From positions 72,765 to 136,764 of the forward strand of contig NZ_LT985325.1 of NCBI RefSeq assembly GCF_900290275.1: a DNA stretch of 64,000 bases, in the 5' to 3' direction. This DNA is from Prevotella merdae (GTDB lineage: Bacteria > Bacteroidota > Bacteroidia > Bacteroidales > Bacteroidaceae). The position numbers were made by a program, and so were the translations under genes. The notes below the pieces were generated by a model, which saw nothing but the letters and a program-made list of their open reading frames with translations, did no database searches and was not told the DNA's origin. This document shows, piece after piece, positions 48,307 through 57,745 of this stretch; the stretch's first letter is position 1, and every line of letters begins with the position of its first letter.

Positions 48307-49191
48307 TTATATGCCGATAGCAATCTTCGTGCTCTTTAGTTTGCCGTTGCTGTCAGCACATTTCTTTATATATATGCCCTTTTGCTGTGGCTCGCCATTA
48401 AGACGTTTTCCGTCAAGGTTGAACCAAGTTGTGGATATAATATAATTTGTGCTTATGCCATTTACACTCAACTCGGTGTTGCGTTTATGGCTAAATACCC
48501 AATTGAGTCGTTCTTTGGTGTAGCTTTTCTTGCATGTGTCTTCGTGCGACCATCCTTCTTCTGTTTCAAAGCGGTATTCGGCATTGTAGGTATCCATGTC
48601 TGCAAGAAAACTTTCTACTGTTGGTATTTTCATCAGTCTATCGGCTGTTCCCATTACGGTGAATAATGGTGTTTGGGCCACATTCTCTGCATTAAGTCCT
48701 GACGGATTGCCGGCTACAGGCATAGCGGCTGCGAAGAAATTAGGGTATAGACTCAACATATTCCAAGTACCAGTGCCACCCATAGAACCACCAAAGATAT
48801 AAACATTGTCGGCAACGCCACGGTCTACAAATGTTTGAAGCATAGCCTTCACTGTAACGAGCATATCGCCTATCCATGACTTGTCTTTAGCACATTGCGG
48901 CACAACCATAATAGCTTTGCGGTTGTTTTGTGTGAGCCATTCTGTTATGTAGTTGATGCCTGGTTCTTGCAATTGGGTTTCGTTATCATCGCCCTTGCTT
49001 GATCCGCCGTGCAGATATATTATAAGTGATGCTTTGTCACCAATTCCAGGTATTGAAGCCTTGCGATAGGGTAGGGCTGTTCCGTCTGTTGCTGTAAACG
49101 ACTCCTTAGAGAAAGAAGTCTGAGCAATTGCCCTGTCGACGCAGCCAAGCGCCAACAGAGCCGAAATCAAAAATCTAATTATTATACTCAT
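48307..49191 (-). CDS. Exported alpha/beta-hydrolase (esterase-like) with degenerate T9SS-type tail
   Basis: 294 residues. A signal peptide ends near AIAQ (residue ~24). The catalytic triad is readable: oxyanion HGG at 61-63, nucleophile S136 in FGGSMGGTG, D184 in GTADRLM, and H216 in GWSHEDT. The type resembles feruloyl esterase/PHB depolymerase-like (prolyl-oligopeptidase-related) hydrolases. After the hydrolase core, the last ~50 residues (STTWFNLDGKRLNGEPQQKG onward) look like a shortened T9SS C-terminal domain. It lies 52 bases after the first ECF cassette on the same strand and may be part of that operon. Confidence 0.82.
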   Translation of the reverse strand: MSIIIRFLISALLALGCVDRAIAQTSFSKESFTATDGTALPYRKASIPGIGDKASLIIYLHGGSSKGDDNETQLQEPGINYITEWLTQNNRKAIMVVPQCAKDKSWIGDMLVTVKAMLQTFVDRGVADNVYIFGGSMGGTGTWNMLSLYPNFFAAAMPVAGNPSGLNAENVAQTPLFTVMGTADRLMKIPTVESFLADMDTYNAEYRFETEEGWSHEDTCKKSYTKERLNWVFSHKRNTELSVNGISTNYIISTTWFNLDGKRLNGEPQQKGIYIKKCADSNGKLKSTKIAIGI

Positions 49192-49243: not shown

Positions 49244-49720
49244 TTACCTTCTTGGCATTCTTGCTCTTGCATGTCTTTTGTTAGCCAAGCGGTTGCGCAT
49301 TTGTTTCTCTATCTCGTACACACGCTGTATTTGTCGTTGTGTAAGGAATGTAGAGTAGCGCTTGTAGTATTTGGCACGAAGGTCAAGTATTTTTTGACTG
49401 CGTTCAAAGTCTTGCTTTGTCTTGGCTTCTGCCTGAGCATCCGTCATCTCACCTTGCTGTCGCTTGCCAGCTCTAGGACCGATGGCCCATAACTCCTTCA
49501 TATAGTTGCAATATTCGGTGGTGAACTTGGCGCTTGTCTCATCATCCAATGCCAGTTTGTTACATATATGTCGGGCTTGTGTCTCGGCAAGTTGCTCACG
49601 TGTCATGCGTTGACGTTCGGTTTTCTGAACACCTGGTTTTGTGTGCTGTGCATTTACTATAGTAGACGAAATTGTCATCATGCACATAACCATAAATAAT
49701 CTTAATACTAACTTTTTCAT
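49244..49720 (-). CDS. Exported Spy/CpxP-like small protein (cassette 1)
   Basis: 158 residues with a signal peptide (MKKLVLRLFMVMCMMTISST..., ending VNAQ near residue 24). The mature part is helical and very basic, with FLTQRQIQRVYEIEKQMR resembling the LTxxQ motif of Spy/CpxP periplasmic chaperone-sensors. It is the third gene of the minus-strand ECF cassette, 29 bases after the anti-sigma-like gene, and has a counterpart at 57290 in the second cassette. Proposed to be a periplasmic sensor or effector of envelope stress; that is inference from layout and helix pattern. Confidence 0.65.
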   Translation of the reverse strand: MKKLVLRLFMVMCMMTISSTIVNAQHTKPGVQKTERQRMTREQLAETQARHICNKLALDDETSAKFTTEYCNYMKELWAIGPRAGKRQQGEMTDAQAEAKTKQDFERSQKILDLRAKYYKRYSTFLTQRQIQRVYEIEKQMRNRLANKRHARARMPRR

Positions 49721-49749
49721 AATTCTATAAATTTTAAAACAACTATTCT

Positions 49750-50088
49750 TTAATTCAAACTTGTGAAAACATCATCTTGATAGATGTTTATAAGAGCATT
49801 TTGGTCATCGTCGTCGAGATTGTTGAAAGCCTTCTCTACAGCAGCCATATTATACTGTTCCTTTTTAGCGTCATCACCTTTATTGTTAATTGTTGTGCTT
49901 ATACCGAAGAACAACAGCAGTGATACGGCTATAGACAGAACCGACATTGTAATGATGCGTGCGTGTTTGTTCTTTCGCTCGCTTGGCAATGAAGCCTTGA
50001 CCTCTTTCTCCAATTTATCAAAGAAATTGTCAGGAGTGGTGTAGGGCATACGCTTGCCTATTTGGTTGAAGTCAAATTTCTTTTCCAT
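49750..50088 (-). CDS. Membrane anti-sigma-like protein (cassette 1)
   Basis: 112 residues from the ATG at 50088; an upstream in-frame start at 50160 would add 24 residues with no support. A cytoplasmic N-terminus carries GKRMPYTTPDNFFDKL (residues 11-26), then one membrane segment (~45-63) and a short periplasmic tail. This motif aligns residue for residue with GKKAPFTVPEGYFDNL in the protein at 56874. The gene follows the sigma factor gene by 71 bases. Single-pass anti-sigma factors are usual partners of ECF sigma factors, but this protein lacks a clear zinc anti-sigma motif (HxxxCxxC). Confidence 0.72.
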   Translation of the reverse strand: MEKKFDFNQIGKRMPYTTPDNFFDKLEKEVKASLPSERKNKHARIITMSVLSIAVSLLLFFGISTTINNKGDDAKKEQYNMAAVEKAFNNLDDDDQNALINIYQDDVFTSLN

Positions 50089-50159
50089 AATTATCTCTAT
50101 TTCGTTGTTATATTGTTTTAATGTACGCGAACATATTATATATAATATGCTTCGGGTCA

Positions 50160-50702
50160 TTATTTATTCATAAATGCTTCTATTTTCTGTTTGGCAGTAT
50201 GATAATTGACCTTGGCACTTGCCGGTGTCGAATGCGTTATCTCGGCTATCTCTTCATACTCCAGTTCGTCATAGTAGCGCAAGTTAAATGTTGCCTGCTG
50301 TTTGGGTGGAAGCGAGTGTATTGCTTGCTGAAACTTAACAGCGATAGCATCGTCGAAATCAACGTAGTTGTCGGCTTCTATATTGCCTATGGTATGGGCA
50401 GATGTAGTGTCTATTGAGCAAGTGTCCGATCGCCTTGAGTTTATCAGTCGTAGTGCTTCGTTGGTGGCAATGCGGTATACCCATGATGTAAGACTGCATT
50501 CGCCTCTGAACTTGTCTATCGATCGCAACACCCTAACAAATACTTCCTGTGTTACATCCTCGGCATCATCGTGACTCACAACCAGACGGCGTATGTGCCA
50601 ATATACTGGTTCGCGGTATCGTTGCATAAACATGGTGAACCCACGTTGCATGTCATGCCTTAGAGCGTTTAATATGTTATTATCTGTCGTTGTTTTATTC
50701 AT
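50160..50702 (-). CDS. ECF sigma-70-type factor (cassette 1)
   Basis: 180 residues. Region 2 covers ~20-90 (DDAEDVTQEVFVRVLR, LTSWVYRIATNEAL) and region 4 covers ~120-175 (LPPKQQATFNLRYYDELEYEEIAE, then the helix SAKVNYHTAKQKIEAFM). No region 1 or 3, as in ECF factors. It directs RNA polymerase to envelope or stress genes. It is clearly paralogous to the gene at 56294. A TACTTTTG -7 box lies 72 bases upstream. The cassette runs sigma, anti-sigma-like, Spy-like, and probably the esterase. Confidence 0.93.
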   Translation of the reverse strand: MNKTTTDNNILNALRHDMQRGFTMFMQRYREPVYWHIRRLVVSHDDAEDVTQEVFVRVLRSIDKFRGECSLTSWVYRIATNEALRLINSRRSDTCSIDTTSAHTIGNIEADNYVDFDDAIAVKFQQAIHSLPPKQQATFNLRYYDELEYEEIAEITHSTPASAKVNYHTAKQKIEAFMNK

Positions 50703-50773
50703 TGTTACTTGTTGTATCGTTGTGTATATTGACGTTTCTTGCGTCGTTCTGTTTATTTGACCTGGCTAAATGG

Positions 50774-50781
50774 CAAAAGTA
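50774..50781 (-). promoter_or_regulatory. -7 box (TACTTTTG) for ECF cassette 1
   Basis: TACTTTTG on the minus strand fits TAnnTTTG, indicating housekeeping-type transcription of the cassette; no separate autoregulatory promoter was recognised. Confidence 0.5.
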
Positions 50782-50882
50782 AAATTTACAGTGAAAAAAA
50801 TATTTAGTTGCCTACAAATGTAATAAAAACAATTAATCCTCGTTACTATAATAAACAATGATTGCAAACTTTAAAATTGCCT

Positions 50883-51011
50883 ATGAAACATTTTACCCCT
50901 GAAGACATCAAGCCGTCTGAAACGACGCTTAACATTATCCGGCAGATAGCCTACACTTATCGTGTTGCTAAATCGGCTGGAGCAAAAGGCAATGTGTATT
51001 GCCTTAACTAA
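50883..51011 (+). CDS. 42-aa small protein upstream of rpe, probably conserved
   Basis: It reads MKHFTPEDIKPSETTLNIIR, then QIAYTYRVAKSAGAKGNVYC and LN. Soluble, no membrane segment. The pattern 'PSxxTLxxIRQIAYTYRV' is one I associate with short conserved Bacteroidales proteins, but I cannot confirm it. It ends 52 bases before rpe on the same strand and starts 180 bases from the divergent ECF sigma gene. No promoter box was clear. Confidence 0.6.
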   Translation: MKHFTPEDIKPSETTLNIIRQIAYTYRVAKSAGAKGNVYCLN

Positions 51012-51063
51012 AGTGACAACAAACCTAACAACAACTTTAAACATAATAGCAGAACATATAGAA

Positions 51064-51720
51064 ATGGAGACTCTTATTTCCCCCTCGTTGCTTTCAGCAA
51101 ATTTTCTCGATTTGAAGTCGGATATCGAAATGATTAACAACAGCGAGGCCGACTGGTTGCACCTCGACATAATGGATGGCGTATTTGTGCCCAATATTTC
51201 TTTTGGCTTTCCAGTTATTAACGCATTGGCAAAGGAATGTAAGAAGCCGCTTGACGTACATCTTATGATTGTGCATCCGGAAAACTATATAAAGCAAGTT
51301 GCAGCTACGGGTGCCATGATGATGAATGTGCACTACGAGGCATGCGTGCATTTGCATCGTACCATTCAGGAGATACATGCAGCAGGAATGAAGGCGGGCG
51401 TAACGCTAAACCCTTCTACACCTGTGTCTATGCTTGCCGACATTATCAACGATGTGGATATGGTGCTCCTGATGAGTGTAAATCCAGGTTTCGGTGGACA
51501 AAAGTTTATTCCTCATTCTGTAGAAAAAACTCGTCAGCTGCGTAGACTCATAGACAGTACAGGCAGTAATGCTCTTATCCAGATAGACGGAGGTGTAAAT
51601 GGCGAGACTGCCAAGTTGCTTGTAGAAGCAGGTGCCGATGTATTAGTAAGTGGCAACTACGTTTTCAAGTCGGAAGACCCGATTGCAACTATACACGGTC
51701 TGAAAACAATTCGTAGATAG
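51064..51720 (+). CDS. rpe: Ribulose-phosphate 3-epimerase
   Basis: 218 residues from the ATG at 51064 (METLISPSLLSANF); the longer frame from 50962 overlaps the 42-aa gene and has no family similarity. The TIM-barrel motifs are SPSLLSANF, HLDIMDGVFVPNIS with the catalytic aspartate and metal ligands, NPGFGGQKF, and QIDGGV. It epimerises ribulose-5-phosphate to xylulose-5-phosphate in the pentose phosphate pathway. Confidence 0.97.
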   Translation: METLISPSLLSANFLDLKSDIEMINNSEADWLHLDIMDGVFVPNISFGFPVINALAKECKKPLDVHLMIVHPENYIKQVAATGAMMMNVHYEACVHLHRTIQEIHAAGMKAGVTLNPSTPVSMLADIINDVDMVLLMSVNPGFGGQKFIPHSVEKTRQLRRLIDSTGSNALIQIDGGVNGETAKLLVEAGADVLVSGNYVFKSEDPIATIHGLKTIRR

Positions 51721-51745
51721 TATATATTAACTTGTACAAAGGACA

Positions 51746-51802
51746 TTATGTCGGATTTTATGCTTACCTTTGTATAATATTAATATGTATTATCCGACAT
51801 AA
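51746..51802. promoter_or_regulatory. Inverted repeat straddling the mazG promoter
   Basis: TTATGTCGGAT (51746-51756) and its exact complement ATCCGACATAA (51792-51802). The TACCTTTG -7 box (51765-51772) and the predicted start of transcription lie between them. Candidate operator; the long 35-base gap makes a terminator less likely. Confidence 0.45.
51765..51772 (+). promoter_or_regulatory. -7 box (TACCTTTG) for mazG
   Basis: TACCTTTG fits TAnnTTTG, 37 bases before the start codon. Confidence 0.65.
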
Positions 51803-51809
51803 ATAACTT

Positions 51810-52667
51810 ATGCATACAAGAGAAGAAAAACTTAAGGCTTTCGGTCGTCTGTTGGATGTGCTCGACGAATTGCGCGAGAAATGTCCATGGGACCGAAAGC
51901 AGACCAATGAATCGTTGCGTCCTAACACAATAGAAGAAACATTCGAATTGTGCGACGCTCTGATAAAGAACGATGAGCCAAACATCTGCAAAGAACTTGG
52001 CGATGTCCTTCTGCATGTGTGCTTCTATGCCAAGATTGGTCAGGAGAACGAGCAGTTTGACATTGCCGATGTGTGCAACAAACTTGTTGACAAACTTATC
52101 TTCCGTCATCCGCATGTCTATCATCCTTCACAGGTTGGCGTGCCAGAACCAAAGCCATTGCCATATGGTGAGGATATTGACGAGCAAGACACATCAGAAG
52201 AGGTAAAGACAGCGCAGCAGGTAATAGAGAATTGGGAGCAGATTAAATTGCGCGAGAGAGACGGCAACAAGCGTGTTCTCTCTGGAGTGCCTAATGCTTT
52301 GCCTGCACTAATCAAGGCTTATCGTATACAGGATAAGGCACGCAATGTTGGATTTGATTGGGAAGACAAAGGTGATGTGTGGGGAAAGGTGCGTGAGGAA
52401 CTTGGCGAATTGGAAGCCGAGATTCGAAAGGAAGATAAAGAACGTTCTACCGAAGAGTTTGGCGACTTCCTTTTCTCGCTCATTAATGCAGCACGTCTGT
52501 ACAAGATAAATCCTGACACGGCTCTCGAGAAAACCAATGCCAAGTTTATAAACCGCTTCAACTATATTGAGGAGCATTCTATCCGCATCGGAAAACCACT
52601 TAAGGATATGACTCTCGGCGAGATGGATGCATTATGGAATGAGGCTAAGGCTCAGGAAAAGAAGTAA
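51810..52667 (+). CDS. mazG: Nucleoside triphosphate pyrophosphohydrolase MazG
   Basis: 285 residues, two MazG domains. The first contains LREKCPWDRKQTNESL and the metal-binding EETFELCDALIKND...KELGDVLLHVCFYA pattern (E-E, then E-x-x-D). The second, less complete, contains EELGELEAEIRKEDKERSTEEFGDFLFS. It hydrolyses nucleoside triphosphates to monophosphates, lowering ppGpp-stress effects and removing damaged dNTPs. It has its own promoter and precedes a lipoprotein gene by 19 bases. Confidence 0.95.
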   Translation: MHTREEKLKAFGRLLDVLDELREKCPWDRKQTNESLRPNTIEETFELCDALIKNDEPNICKELGDVLLHVCFYAKIGQENEQFDIADVCNKLVDKLIFRHPHVYHPSQVGVPEPKPLPYGEDIDEQDTSEEVKTAQQVIENWEQIKLRERDGNKRVLSGVPNALPALIKAYRIQDKARNVGFDWEDKGDVWGKVREELGELEAEIRKEDKERSTEEFGDFLFSLINAARLYKINPDTALEKTNAKFINRFNYIEEHSIRIGKPLKDMTLGEMDALWNEAKAQEKK

Positions 52668-52686
52668 TAACTAAATCAGAACCATT

Positions 52687-53262
52687 ATGAAACACGTTGC
52701 AATGCTTTTTGCATCCATTTTGCTTATGGCATTAGTTGGATGCAATGCCAAGAAGGAAAAGCCACAGCCTTTGGCTGAGGCTCATGAGGAAATAGTAGAC
52801 ACAACTGTCTATGGAGTTTGTGGCGACGGCACATCTATGCACTCGCTCCAACTTGTAACCGATGCCGGTGATACTCTGACATATACCATTCTTGATGCTG
52901 AAGCCGATTTGGATGGCGAGGTTTCGGGTGGAATTGTCTCAAATGTAGAGGGCGGACTTATGTCAGGTGACAAGGTGGCTGTAACTGGAATGAAGATTGA
53001 CGGCGAACTGATTGCCAATCGTGTTATAAATGTTACATCACTCTTGGGACATTGGACAAGTCTTGACAAGAACTTCGAAATAGAGGAGGGTGGCACTGTT
53101 CGCTCAAATGTCAAGGCCGAAACAAACCCTTGGACATCGTGGAAGATACTTAATGGACAGCTGTTGCTCAATCGCGACACTTTCGACATAACATCACTTG
53201 GAGCCGACTCGCTTTATATTGAGAATCAAAAAGGCATATACATTTTTAAGCGTCAGAAATAA
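52687..53262 (+). CDS. Lipoprotein of unknown function, lipocalin-like tail
   Basis: 191 residues. MKHVAMLFASILLMALVGCN is a lipoprotein signal with the acylated cysteine at residue 19. The mature part is all-beta in appearance; residues ~35-110 suggest an OB-like fold (VSGGIVSNVEGGLMSGDKVAVTG) and ~115-191 a lipocalin-like small barrel (LLGHWTSLDKNFEIEEGGT, then YIENQKGIYIFKRQK). The stop codon is immediately followed by the start of rnz with no gap, so the two are co-translated. Confidence 0.7.
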   Translation: MKHVAMLFASILLMALVGCNAKKEKPQPLAEAHEEIVDTTVYGVCGDGTSMHSLQLVTDAGDTLTYTILDAEADLDGEVSGGIVSNVEGGLMSGDKVAVTGMKIDGELIANRVINVTSLLGHWTSLDKNFEIEEGGTVRSNVKAETNPWTSWKILNGQLLLNRDTFDITSLGADSLYIENQKGIYIFKRQK

Positions 53263-54180
53263 ATGGAGCCATTCAAGATACACATTCTCGGGTGTGGCTC
53301 AGCCCTCCCGACACTCAGACATAATCCGTCTGCACAAGTTGTGGAGCTTCGTGGCAAACAGTTTATGATTGATTGTGGCGAGGGTACACAGACGCAGATG
53401 CGTCGTTCTCGCATTGGTTTCAACAAGGTTGTGGCTATATTCATCAGTCATATTCATGGTGATCATTGCTTTGGACTTATTGGCATGCTCTCGTCTTTCG
53501 GATTGCTCGGACGCACTATGCCTCTTGCCATATACGCACCAAAGGAATTTAAACCCGTGCTTGACATGATGCTTAAAACCTTCTGCTACGACTTCGACTA
53601 TGAGATACAGTTTCATGCTGTCGATACAACCAAACAACAGGTAATATACGAAGACCGCAGTCTTACGGTAGAGTCTATTCCGCTCAAGCATCGTTTGCCC
53701 ACTTGCGGTTTCCTATTCCGCGAGAAGCCAACCTTGCCACATATACGCCGCGACATGATTGACTTTTATCATATACCAGTTTCGCAGATAAACAATATCA
53801 AGAACGGAGCTTCGTGGACTGATGAAGAAGGTCGTGAGATACCAAATTCGCGTCTTACAACTCCTGCCGATCCTGCTCGCAGTTATGCTTATTGTAGCGA
53901 CACTTGCTATTTGCCGTCATTGCACGAGCGCGTTGCTGGTGTTAGTTGTCTTTATCACGAGTCTACATACATCACTGCAGATATCGACCGTGCCGAGATG
54001 TACTATCATAGTACAGCTGCACAGGCTGCACAGGTTGCTCGAGATGCTAATGTGGGTCGCTTGCTTCTTGGACATTATAGTTCTAAATACGACGATGAGC
54101 AGCAGTTGCTTAAGGAGGCTCAAGAGGTATTTCCTGAGTCGCAACTCACTGCTGAAGGTATGACAATCGACCTTAAGTGA
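53263..54180 (+). CDS. rnz: Ribonuclease Z
   Basis: 305 residues, typical of the short RNase Z form. The zinc-binding motif HIHGDH gives H63, H65, D67 and H68. Other conserved parts are GCGSALPT, FMIDCGEGTQTQMRR, and LGHYSSKYDD near the end. It cuts the 3' trailer of tRNA precursors that lack a CCA. It starts directly after the stop of the preceding lipoprotein gene. A 12-bp hairpin ends the unit. Confidence 0.95.
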   Translation: MEPFKIHILGCGSALPTLRHNPSAQVVELRGKQFMIDCGEGTQTQMRRSRIGFNKVVAIFISHIHGDHCFGLIGMLSSFGLLGRTMPLAIYAPKEFKPVLDMMLKTFCYDFDYEIQFHAVDTTKQQVIYEDRSLTVESIPLKHRLPTCGFLFREKPTLPHIRRDMIDFYHIPVSQINNIKNGASWTDEEGREIPNSRLTTPADPARSYAYCSDTCYLPSLHERVAGVSCLYHESTYITADIDRAEMYYHSTAAQAAQVARDANVGRLLLGHYSSKYDDEQQLLKEAQEVFPESQLTAEGMTIDLK

Positions 54181-54194
54181 TGTTGTATTATATT

Positions 54195-54247
54195 ACACTT
54201 TCGACCGTAAATGCTAAATATTGTTAAGTGTTCATGGTCGAAAGTGT
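54195..54247 (+). terminator. Hairpin terminator after rnz
   Basis: ACACTTTCGACC (54195-54206) pairs with GGTCGAAAGTGT (54236-54247); the loop is 29 bases and TTCGTT follows. Confidence 0.7.
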
Positions 54248-54277
54248 TTCGTTAAAACAACTTGTCGAAAAAATGTA

Positions 54278-54285
54278 TATCTTTG
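54278..54285 (+). promoter_or_regulatory. -7 box (TATCTTTG) for the orphan sorting-domain gene
   Basis: TATCTTTG with TTG about 16 bases upstream, 46 bases before the start codon. Confidence 0.6.
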
Positions 54286-54330
54286 CATCATATAGATGTA
54301 AATGTATAAGTGCAACAAAAACCGAACGAT

Positions 54331-54654
54331 ATGGTAAAATATATACTCTCATTATTTCTTTTGACTGCCTTTGTGGCAACAATGCCGCTTAAAGCATCAG
54401 CAAGCCGTATGGCTGAGATAGAGCTTATCGACAACAACGACTTCAATAAGGTTGTTATTACCCTTAACGGCTCTAATCTGCGTGTTACGGGTGCTGAGGG
54501 TATGACGTTGTGTATATACAACATTGCTGGTGGACAGCCTGTGATGAAGGCAAAGGTTGAAAGTGCTGACAAGACGTACGACCTTACACTTCCAAAGGGA
54601 GTGTACATAGTACAGGTTGGCAATAAGGCTACAAGAAAGATTGTTATCAAATAA
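54331..54654 (+). CDS. Stand-alone T9SS C-terminal domain protein (107 aa)
   Basis: A signal peptide (MVKYILSLFLLTAFVATMPL, ending near ASAS) is followed directly by one ~75-residue domain, ending GVYIVQVGNKATRKIVIK. This is the pattern of a T9SS type A-like sorting domain: a strand with LCIYNIAGGQ, then YDLTLPKGVYIVQ and the K-[IV]-[IV]-K end. Nothing else is attached: there is no catalytic or binding module. A GTG-initiated longer frame at 54310 adds seven residues and is less likely. It may be a free decoy, a regulator of the secretion pathway or a decayed cargo; undetermined. Confidence 0.75.
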   Translation: MVKYILSLFLLTAFVATMPLKASASRMAEIELIDNNDFNKVVITLNGSNLRVTGAEGMTLCIYNIAGGQPVMKAKVESADKTYDLTLPKGVYIVQVGNKATRKIVIK

Positions 54655-54687
54655 AAAAAACAGTAGTCAATTTCGAATACTGCAAAA

Positions 54688-56244
54688 GTGAACATTCATA
54701 AGATTTTTATATTGTTTCTTCTCCTGGTAGGAGTGTTTAGCTCATGCCAAGAGAAGGAATTTCGTATTCCCATAACTCTCGAATCGTTTGCTGATATGGC
54801 AGACGTTAAGTATCGTGTTGACGCCGACTTGCTTAGCGAAAGTCTGCGTCATGTTGTCTTGGCAGATACCGATCGTGAGACTCCTGATATTCAAGCTCGT
54901 CGTCATTATCTTGATGGTGGACAGCTTGTATGGGTCACTCGTAATGGCATCTCGTCAAAAGCAGATACTTTGCTTACATATTTAGCTACGGTAGACAGTA
55001 TAGGCTTTTCATCCGAAAAGTTTTGCTACTCTTCTTTAAGTAGCGACCTCCAACGGGCACGAGATCTTGATTTCGATTCCGACAAGGATAGTCGTAATAA
55101 TATAAATAAGGTGTATGCTCGTTTGGAGTATCGTCTTACAAAGGCTTTCTTGCGATATGTCGAGGGTATGCGTTTTGGTTTTGTCAATCCATACGATGCC
55201 TTCAATCGTCTTGATGTGCGTGACAGTAGTGGTGTTTACACATCTTACCGTTCGTTGTACGATGTTCCTACAAAGCGACCTGATGCCAAGTTTGTATCTG
55301 AGGCATTTGCTGTAATGGCTGGCAATGATAAGGCTGTAGGCACTTTTCTGGCTGCATCTCGTCCTGAGAATCCTCTTTATCATGTTTTTTATAAACGTTT
55401 ACACGAGTCACTTTCTACTGCAGAGCGTTGTCTTGTGCTTTGTAATATGGAGCGTAGCCGTTGGCGTCATGGCAACTATCCGCAACAACATAAGAAGTAT
55501 GTGCTGGTCAATGTTCCGTCATTATATCTTGTTGCCACTGATGGCGACGAGCATCTCACCATGCGTATAGGTTTTGGTAGCTTGAAGACAAAGACACCGT
55601 TGCTGACAAGCAAGATAAAACGAATGGACTTTAATCCGCAGTGGATTATACCTAAGAGCATCATCAAGACTTCTGTCAGGCACAATGCTGGCAATACAGC
55701 CTATTTTGACAGTCACGATTATTTCATACGCCAGCGTTCAACAGGTCGTGAGGTAGATCCTGCTACTGTTACAGGCGATATGTTGATGAGTTCAGACTAT
55801 CTTGTGATACAGCGAGGTGGTGAGGGCAACTCGCTTGGACGTATCATATTCCGATTTGACAACGACTATTCTATCTATATGCACGACACGTCAAATCGTA
55901 ATGTCTTCTCGCGTAGCAACCGTAGTGTGTCGCATGGTTGTATACGTGTAGAGAAGCCTTACGACCTTGCCGTCTTTATGCTTGCCGATAAGGACGAGTC
56001 GATGATGAAGAAGATAGATTATTCGATGACGGTCAAGTATGGTCGACATCGTACCGAGGACGACGATGTTAATAGTCCTATCAATCGTCGTATGATGCTT
56101 CGCAGCCTCAAGGTTGAGCCACAGGTTCCGGTGTTCATCACCTATTATACACTGTATCCTGATACTAATGGCACCCTTGTAAGGTATGATGATATCTATG
56201 GCTTCGATCCTGTTATATACCAGCGTATACAGAAGTATATGTAA
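54688..56244 (+). CDS. Lipoprotein L,D-transpeptidase (YcbB-like)
   Basis: 518 residues from a GTG start at 54688, giving MNIHKIFILFLLLVGVFSSC with a lipobox cysteine at residue 20. The catalytic YkuD domain is C-terminal: the conserved histidine in YMHDTSNRN and the nucleophile C418 in VSHGCIRVE. The N-terminal ~300 residues resemble the scaffold of YcbB/LdtD proteins. Such enzymes form 3-3 crosslinks in peptidoglycan or attach lipoproteins. No ATG is positioned to give the same signal peptide. It ends 49 bases before the second ECF sigma gene, so the cell-wall enzyme and the stress cassette may be linked. Confidence 0.88.
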   Translation: MNIHKIFILFLLLVGVFSSCQEKEFRIPITLESFADMADVKYRVDADLLSESLRHVVLADTDRETPDIQARRHYLDGGQLVWVTRNGISSKADTLLTYLATVDSIGFSSEKFCYSSLSSDLQRARDLDFDSDKDSRNNINKVYARLEYRLTKAFLRYVEGMRFGFVNPYDAFNRLDVRDSSGVYTSYRSLYDVPTKRPDAKFVSEAFAVMAGNDKAVGTFLAASRPENPLYHVFYKRLHESLSTAERCLVLCNMERSRWRHGNYPQQHKKYVLVNVPSLYLVATDGDEHLTMRIGFGSLKTKTPLLTSKIKRMDFNPQWIIPKSIIKTSVRHNAGNTAYFDSHDYFIRQRSTGREVDPATVTGDMLMSSDYLVIQRGGEGNSLGRIIFRFDNDYSIYMHDTSNRNVFSRSNRSVSHGCIRVEKPYDLAVFMLADKDESMMKKIDYSMTVKYGRHRTEDDDVNSPINRRMMLRSLKVEPQVPVFITYYTLYPDTNGTLVRYDDIYGFDPVIYQRIQKYM

Positions 56245-56293
56245 ATAGTCATTGCCAACTCACGTGAAGGAAGACAATTCGTCAATACAACAA

Positions 56294-56803
56294 ATGGATA
56301 TGACCGAGAAGCGCAAGCTTTTCGAGTCAATTGTTCCCCAGTACAGCGAGAAGTTGTATTGGGCGATACGTCGTATAGTGTTGTGTCACGACGATGCCAA
56401 CGACGTGTTGCAGAATGTGTTTATTAAGGTGTGGAATGGCATTGACGATTTTAAGAATCGCTCTAAGTTGTCTACTTGGCTTTATCGCATTGCTGTCAAC
56501 GAGGCTCTCGACTTTCTAAGGCGTAAGCGCAACGTGGCATCGCTTGATATTTCAGACAATATATCTGTGGCAGACAGCCTTGAAGCCGACCAGTATTTTG
56601 ATGGCGACAGGGTTCAGGCATTGCTTCAAGAGGCAATAGCTTCACTGCCAGATGTACAGAGGGTGGTGTTCAACCTTCGTTATTATGACGAGATGAAGTA
56701 TTCGGAGATAAGCCAGTTGCTCGACACTTCCGAAGGAGCTTTGAAGGCAAGTTATCATATTGCGGTGAAAAAAATAACTGCATTTATGAAAGAACATCAG
56801 TAA
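56294..56803 (+). CDS. ECF sigma-70-type factor (cassette 2)
   Basis: 169 residues from the ATG at 56294; another ATG is at 56300, and an upstream TTG at 56252 is less likely. Regions 2 and 4 are as in its paralogue: DDANDVLQNVFIKVWNGIDD, LSTWLYRIAVNEALDFLRRK, LPDVQRVVFNLRYYDEMKYS, and a final helix EGALKASYHIAVKKITAF. Shared residues with the minus-strand copy include HDDAxDVxQxVF, WxYRIAxNEAL and FNLRYYDE. It follows the L,D-transpeptidase and precedes the anti-sigma-like gene by 70 bases. Confidence 0.93.
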   Translation: MDMTEKRKLFESIVPQYSEKLYWAIRRIVLCHDDANDVLQNVFIKVWNGIDDFKNRSKLSTWLYRIAVNEALDFLRRKRNVASLDISDNISVADSLEADQYFDGDRVQALLQEAIASLPDVQRVVFNLRYYDEMKYSEISQLLDTSEGALKASYHIAVKKITAFMKEHQ

Positions 56804-56873
56804 TATTTCATTTTTGTTTTAAACCATTACGCTATACAAACGTCAAACATATAGAACTAATAAAGTAATTTGT

Positions 56874-57284
56874 ATGGAATCTGATGAAAGATATATAGAA
56901 TCATGTTTTGGCAAGAAGGCTCCTTTTACGGTGCCTGAAGGCTATTTCGACAACCTTACGCAAAACATAATGAATAGTGTTGAGGCTGCCGATAAGGTAG
57001 TGCCGCATGTACCAGAGGCAACTCAGCAGAATAAAGTCATAACAATTAATTGGTGGCACCGTTGTCGCCGTTATGCGGCAGTGGCTGCTTGTGTTGCTTT
57101 TATTGTGGGAGGTGTGTCGGTTTGGCAATTTAAGTCTACTGCAGATACAGGCAAGACACATATTGCAACAGCAACACATCACAGCACATATGATGCTTCG
57201 GCATACAATAGTGTGAGCGACGAGGAGATTAACTACTCTATGCTCGACAATCAGGATATGTATACACTTATGGCAAGCAACTGA
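56874..57284 (+). CDS. Membrane anti-sigma-like protein (cassette 2)
   Basis: 136 residues. The N-terminal GKKAPFTVPEGYFDNL (residues 13-28) matches GKRMPYTTPDNFFDKL of cassette 1. One membrane segment lies near residues 67-84 (YAAVAACVAFIVGGVSVW), followed by a periplasmic tail of ~50 polar residues. No zinc-finger anti-sigma motif. It lies five bases before the Spy-like gene. Likely function: sequester the sigma factor at the membrane until an envelope signal appears; inference from layout and the shared motif. Confidence 0.75.
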   Translation: MESDERYIESCFGKKAPFTVPEGYFDNLTQNIMNSVEAADKVVPHVPEATQQNKVITINWWHRCRRYAAVAACVAFIVGGVSVWQFKSTADTGKTHIATATHHSTYDASAYNSVSDEEINYSMLDNQDMYTLMASN

Positions 57285-57289
57285 CGATT

Positions 57290-57745
57290 ATGAGTTTAAG
57301 AAGATACATCATTTCAATATTGTTGGTATTGTGCGGCGTCTTAGCTATAGCGCAAGAACCAAAGAAGTTTGACCCGGCACAGTTCGAGGCAAACTTAGAG
57401 CAGTTTGTTGCTACAGAGGCGCGACTAACTCCTGCTGAGTCAGCCGAGTTTTTCCCTTTATACAGAGAGATGCGCAAAAAGCAAATGGCTTATTTCTGCG
57501 ACCATCGTCGTTGGCATTATATTGATGAGGCTGACGACAAAGCATGTGCCGATGCTATACGCCGACTCGATAACAATGATCTCGAGATTAAACGTTTACA
57601 GCAAGCCTATCACGAGAAGTTCTTGCGTATTCTGCCTGCCTCAAAAGTTTATCGCATTATTAAGGCAGAGGACAAGTTTCACAGACAGCAGTTCAAGCGC
57701 ATACATGCTAATGGCAAGCGACACCGTCAACATGGTGCCAATTAG
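57290..57745 (+). CDS. Exported Spy/CpxP-like small protein (cassette 2)
   Basis: 151 residues with a signal peptide (MSLRRYIISILLVLCGVLAI..., ending near AQEP). The mature protein is helical, with 'FVATEARLTPAESAEFFPLY' and a histidine- and arginine-rich tail (FKRIHANGKRHRQHGAN). It corresponds in position and pattern to the gene at 49244: both have a signal peptide, an acidic-helical middle, and a basic tail. Start five bases after the preceding stop. Possible periplasmic sensor or metal-responsive chaperone; not proven. Confidence 0.65.
   Translation: MSLRRYIISILLVLCGVLAIAQEPKKFDPAQFEANLEQFVATEARLTPAESAEFFPLYREMRKKQMAYFCDHRRWHYIDEADDKACADAIRRLDNNDLEIKRLQQAYHEKFLRILPASKVYRIIKAEDKFHRQQFKRIHANGKRHRQHGAN

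Follow-up and report, generated by a model that had tools for sequence, protein, structure and literature searches.

Two regulatory gene cassettes of the same make-up lie close together in the genome of Prevotella merdae, and the question raised by this locus is whether they arose from one another by duplication in this lineage or descend from two separate circuits, and what such circuits would do for the cell envelope. The window, i.e., the whole stretch of DNA analysed, comprised 64,000 nucleotides (nt) of contig NZ_LT985325.1. In it, each cassette encoded an extracytoplasmic function (ECF) sigma factor, a single-pass membrane protein and a small exported helical protein; cassette 1 occupied positions 49244-50702 on the minus strand and cassette 2 positions 56294-57745 on the plus strand, so that the two ran in opposite directions, 5.6 kb apart. 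The best explanation is that these are two ancient, separately inherited Bacteroidales envelope-stress circuits, to which, together with the mechanism proposed below, we assign a probability of about 0.85. The six genes, with their counterparts in Phocaeicola vulgatus, are as follows:

50160..50702, minus strand: sig1, ECF sigma factor corresponding to CirY of P. vulgatus (regions 2 and 4 by Pfam; reciprocal best hit; tree)
49750..50088, minus strand: anti1, single-pass membrane protein, putative anti-sigma factor and CirZ counterpart (reciprocal best hit; family alignment)
49244..49720, minus strand: third1, exported Spy-like protein of helical type, corresponding to the spy gene linked to cirYZ (reciprocal best hit; predicted model; homology to third2)
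56294..56803, plus strand: sig2, ECF sigma factor corresponding to that of the second P. vulgatus spy locus (Pfam; reciprocal best hit; tree)
56874..57284, plus strand: anti2, single-pass membrane protein, putative anti-sigma factor (reciprocal best hit; family alignment)
57290..57745, plus strand: third2, exported helical Spy-like protein (reciprocal best hit; predicted model)

All six open reading frames (ORFs) were found where a preliminary description of this DNA had placed them except for the start of anti1, whose extent was corrected from 49750-50160 to 49750-50088 because its homologues begin at MEKxFDF. Both sigma factors matched Sigma70_r2 and Sigma70_r4_2 above the Pfam cut-offs, shared the motifs HDDAxDVxQxVF and FNLRYYDE that had been noted before, and were 42% identical over 163 columns. 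The 16-residue N-terminal stretch said to be common to the two membrane proteins contained eight identical residues (BLASTP E 6e-6 for this single pair). The neighboring genes named at the same time (rpe, mazG, rnz, an orphan sorting domain, an L,D-transpeptidase and an esterase) were likewise present.

The cirY-cirZ-spy system of P. vulgatus was reported in April 2026; there, deletion of cirZ raises cirY, spy and two neighboring genes, and a second sigma/anti-sigma/spy locus lies upstream of the SusC/D genes of PUL35 (PMC13114119). Two of our retrieved loci agreed with these accounts: L286 carried a sigma factor, anti-sigma factor, third gene, CBM9 protein and glucosaminidase-LysM protein in a row, as in cirY-cirZ-spy and its two neighbors, and L296 carried rnz, sigma factor, anti-sigma factor, third gene, SusC and SusD, as in the second spy region. 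Cassette 1 gave reciprocal best hits with L286 (sigma factor 53.8%, anti-sigma factor 49-51% over 71 columns, third protein 34.5% identity), and cassette 2 with L296 (53.9%, 27.7% and 27.1%, respectively). By these sequence comparisons, cassette 1 is the gene-by-gene counterpart of cirY-cirZ-spy and cassette 2 that of the second, rnz-linked locus. The first system agrees with cassette 1 in its three genes and their order, though it is followed in P. vulgatus by the CBM9 and glucosaminidase-LysM genes and in the window by an esterase gene. The second shares the upstream rnz and the three genes with cassette 2; however, rnz adjoins the sigma gene in P. vulgatus, whereas a sorting-domain gene (sort) and an L,D-transpeptidase gene intervene in the window, and SusC/D follow there where truA follows here. 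Both gene sets have thus been described, and the observation of paired cassettes is correct but mostly known; the present analysis adds their one-to-one orthology, the age and spread of both circuits, the place of sort at the head of cassette 2 and evidence that the third proteins are homologous.

The sigma factors themselves were compared in a second tree of 81 chosen sequences, to which class A and class B orthologues had been added; it used 39 of the 83 rows of the earlier tree and left out a very long outgroup row, L287 (class A) and an unrelated sigma factor at position 10632 of L297. All 22 class A rows, sig1 and CirY among them, formed one side of a branch with 99/99 support, whereas sig2 fell among other Prevotellaceae and rnz-linked rows; class B, to which the sigma factor of L296 belongs, was recovered as a single group with only 60/85 support. 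The first tree, which contained the very long outgroup row, had placed sig1 inside other Bacteroidales. The preliminary description had read the pair as duplicated circuits, and a recent local duplication within this lineage with shared targets would suit the 5.6-kb spacing, the opposite directions and the 42% identity of the sigma factors. It is contradicted by the closer relationship of each cassette to a different P. vulgatus cassette and by the class A branch; also against it, no ORF around 80 cassette-2 loci (up to 10 kb per side, many shorter) had sig1, anti1 or third1 as its best match. We therefore rejected local duplication, whose probability we consider close to negligible, and regard the cassettes as old paralogues, found in this genome as near neighbors, since both the reciprocal best hits and the tree separate them. 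Their side-by-side inverted arrangement is not conserved in the loci examined.

If the cassettes are old circuits, are their parts inherited together? Distribution was searched in Bacteroidales genomes, and Prevotellaceae loci were taken from a scan with sig2 (the best 80 of 334). Matches to sig1 (E <= 1e-22) occurred at 104 places in 100 of 149 Bacteroidales genomes; of these places 58 were retrieved, and a third gene lay downstream in 56. Among the 80 Prevotellaceae loci, third2 was present in 76. Taken over 141 sigma loci (the 80, the 58, the two of the window and L081), the order sigma, anti-sigma, third gene was kept in 135, with median gaps of 44 nt between sigma and anti-sigma genes and 15 nt between anti-sigma and third genes (133 loci). 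Three of the six loci lacking a third gene ended at contig ends (L001, L038, L200), two lacked both anti-sigma and third genes (L010, L064) and one had a longer anti-sigma gene (L161). The preliminary description had called for such a survey, and would have given up its reading had the third proteins been unrelated and the gene order not conserved; the order holds in these 135 loci and the third proteins are homologous, so that its core, two paralogous circuits of ECF sigma factor, membrane anti-sigma factor and exported protein, stands. Profiles of the third proteins differed in reach: third2 matched (E <= 0.001) in 88 of 149 Bacteroidales genomes and third1 in 13, mostly at the same place as a third2 match, and within the narrower family of genome G001 (121 genomes) third2 matched in 115 and third1 in 70, the latter count including some cross-matches to third2. 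What follows cassette 1 in other genomes was of mixed kinds (20 proteins scanned).

The third proteins were too divergent for direct comparison (BLASTP of third1 against third2 gave E 25, with nothing seen), yet they proved homologous by profile, and remained so with signal peptides removed: the mature profiles matched at E 2e-7, against E >= 0.06 for 20 shuffled decoys, and the view that they are unrelated was rejected on this basis. Predicted models reached a predicted local distance difference test (pLDDT) score of 79.5 for third1 and 93.0 for third2. Neither protein matched the Spy/LTXXQ family PF07813, although P0125, a relative of the third1 family, scored 24.3 bits at the cut-off of 24.3. 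Pfam scans of the third families otherwise gave weak, scattered matches only, searches of their profiles against PDB sequences gave no convincing match, and, as to the helical hairpin fold of Spy, CpxP and CnrX, fold matches stayed within the noise for helical bundles, a result that concerns the families compared. Among 30 picked loci with third1-like matches (20 + 10), a sigma gene adjoined 19 and none was found at 10; the remaining locus, L261, was truncated at the end of its contig. A solitary third1-like gene at L159:3504-4058 had neither sigma nor anti-sigma gene adjoining, and such copies occur in other genomes too. Two loci (L249:4624-5438 and L251:3026-3839) carried a tandem pair of third-like genes behind the cassette 1 anti-sigma gene, with FGE-sulfatase-type proteins further downstream.

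The membrane proteins were short, at 112 residues for anti1 and 136 for anti2. An alignment of 33 of them showed a PFxVPExYF region on the cytoplasmic side, a single membrane helix and, behind it, a short tail, and by this family alignment the anti-sigma domain is short. The tails were acidic in 130 of 133 loci and the mature third proteins basic in 126 of 135, to be read against a background median charge of -5 for all ORFs of 300-700 residues and with the anti-sigma ORF picked automatically per locus, which is doubtful in at least one (L164). Neither protein matched a Pfam or NCBIfam family above cut-off, no search with class I anti-sigma models having been made, and the anti-sigma profile found no convincing match, CnrY included, among PDB sequences. 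One might therefore take them for unrelated small membrane proteins that stand in the operon by chance. We consider this very improbable: both their place directly after the sigma gene and their cytoplasmic segment are conserved, and deletion of the orthologue cirZ raises cirY and spy in P. vulgatus (PMC13114119). Among Bacteroidetes ECF sigma factors, only 6% are reported to have a class I anti-sigma factor nearby, and anti-sigma domains below 50 residues may belong to class II, the class of CnrY (PMC7406223). EcfO-Reo, which the preliminary description had named as a described pair, and Das-Dma of Bacteroides likewise pair an ECF sigma factor with a membrane anti-sigma factor in Bacteroidales, but Dma/Reo-type proteins have a long tether, disordered in Dma proteins, and end in a beta-barrel (PMC13088901). 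Membership of anti1 and anti2 in that class was rejected, as they are too short, with about 40-50 residues behind the membrane helix.

Also comparable is CnrYXH of Cupriavidus metallidurans, which comprises a sigma factor, a short membrane anti-sigma factor and a periplasmic helical protein, as the window cassettes do. CnrY is assigned to class II (PMC7406223). Among solved structures, CnrY was not matched in sequence by the window anti-sigma factors, and metal sensing was not indicated. The preliminary description had proposed the third gene as a built-in periplasmic sensor, and by analogy with CnrX the third protein might act chiefly as the input, sitting on the anti-sigma tail and being needed to keep or release the sigma factor, with chaperoning secondary. 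Fold matches within the helical-bundle noise, third1-like genes that occur without a cassette, and the account of spy as an output of CirY (PMC13114119) argue against this role, which we regard as possible but unlikely. The preferred reading, that of two ancient envelope-stress circuits, would work as follows. The ECF sigma factor is probably held at the inner membrane by the short single-pass anti-sigma factor, with its cytoplasmic PFxVPExYF segment, one membrane helix and short acidic periplasmic tail. Envelope stress would free the sigma factor, and the freed factor would raise its own operon, including the co-encoded Spy-like periplasmic protein. This protein would then buffer unfolded proteins, presumably as a chaperone; it may also bind the acidic anti-sigma tail and in this way dampen the circuit. 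In this reading cassette 1 is the cirY-cirZ-spy circuit and cassette 2 the second, rnz-linked one, to which Prevotellaceae add a sorting-domain protein that stands alone and, in most cases, an L,D-transpeptidase. For P. merdae, this function is proposed from sequence; restraint of the sigma factor by its anti-sigma factor has been demonstrated in P. vulgatus only (PMC13114119).

The genes around the cassettes bear on how far each circuit extends:

48307..49191, minus strand: exported esterase, possible member of the cassette 1 transcript (52 nt behind third1)
53263..54180, plus strand: rnz, ribonuclease Z, conserved neighbor upstream of cassette 2 (also upstream of the class B sigma gene in the P. 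vulgatus-like L296)
54278..54285, plus strand: TAnnTTTG element before sort (77 of 77 loci)
54331..54654, plus strand: sort, a signal peptide followed by a lone C-terminal domain of type IX secretion type A (TIGR04183)
54688..56244, plus strand: L,D-transpeptidase (YkuD), after sort and before sig2 (above cut-offs for PF03734 and PF20142)

The product of sort comprised 107 residues, with a signal peptide and C-terminal domain (CTD) only, and matched TIGR04183 at 32.3 bits (cut-off 23). Of the 80 Prevotellaceae loci, 78 contained it, the other two (L009, L042) beginning inside the transpeptidase gene; the transpeptidase was detected by BLASTP in 65, and in the 15 loci without it sort ended within about 130 nt of sig2. 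The sequence TAnnTTTG, the Bacteroidetes primary promoter consensus, stood no more than 150 nt ahead of sort in all 77 of 77 loci, against a mean of 8.4 and a maximum of 15 in shuffles, and preceded sig2 in 2 of 80, so that sort most likely heads the transcript. The same element preceded 3 of 22 class A sigma genes, about shuffle level (mean 1.85, maximum 5), and was somewhat above shuffles before class B (7/25) and other Bacteroidales (15/57) sigma genes. By sequence, then, cassette 2 in Prevotellaceae is most likely headed by a stand-alone type IX CTD protein. In 16 Prevotella genomes the best sort match was one small gene, with weaker matches (E 4e-5 or above) found for the most part within long frames; this gene stood at the sig2 locus in 15, and the locus of G004 meets a contig end. 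Outside Prevotellaceae, sort occurred upstream of the sigma gene in L275, L277 and L281 and near it on the other strand in L285. Among the papers listed by the literature searches, we saw none that ties a stand-alone CTD protein to this cassette. A related arrangement is PorA-PorXY-SigP of Porphyromonas gingivalis, in which PorA, a small CTD protein, stands above the ECF sigma factor SigP in the pathway; PorA has 246 residues with a FimH-like domain before the CTD (PMC7712824). Identity of sort with PorA was rejected; its 107 residues leave no room for such an N-terminal domain.

The place of sort and the promoter-like element before it suggest that the stress circuit of cassette 2 may be tied to type IX secretion. 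A more specific version is that cassette 2 in Prevotellaceae is a stress circuit of the type IX secretion system (T9SS), in which the cargo-less sort serves as a sentinel heading a sort-ldt-sig2-anti2-third2 unit: sort would normally be cleared by the T9SS, and upon a block would build up in the periplasm and act on anti2 or third2, thereby freeing sig2 and raising the Spy-like protein. It draws on the placement of sort in 78 of 80 loci, on the promoter-like element before sort and rarely before sig2, on the co-occurrence of sort with SprA in 40 chosen genomes (both in 17, neither in 18, SprA only in G188 and G193, sort only in G003, G195 and G218, the last seen by profile only, at the locus), and on an unusual anti-sigma factor. 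The latter, at L161:3047-4258, has 403 residues, carries the PENYF segment as well as a membrane helix, ends in a CHU_C domain of T9SS type B (74.4 bits, cut-off 27), and stands beside a cassette-type sigma gene with no third gene behind it; a search with its N-terminus returned its own cluster only (21 members on 24 contigs). Several points weigh against the sentinel: sort is kept in three genomes without detected SprA, the co-occurrence counts are not independent because the genomes are related, and the L161 fusion stands alone and carries another type of CTD. We consider this version improbable.

The esterase matched Peptidase_S9 at 25.9 bits (cut-off 22.6), and its order after cassette 1 recurred in L081, there with overlapping ORFs. 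Its C-terminus (WFNLDGKRL...GIYIKK) resembles a type IX sorting tail by eye, and profiles gave no match. A lipoprotein gene at 52687-53262, between mazG and rnz, was kept in many of the 80 loci and contains a lipocalin-like stretch scoring 20.1 bits, marginally below the Pfam cut-off of 20.2.

Across Bacteroidales, the anti-sigma and Spy-like genes usually travel with their sigma gene, and the circuits appear old and separately kept; in the sampled genomes the rnz-linked circuit is the widespread one and the cir circuit the narrower. Should sort be part of the circuit, the question of how Bacteroidota monitor type IX secretion could be addressed directly in Prevotellaceae.

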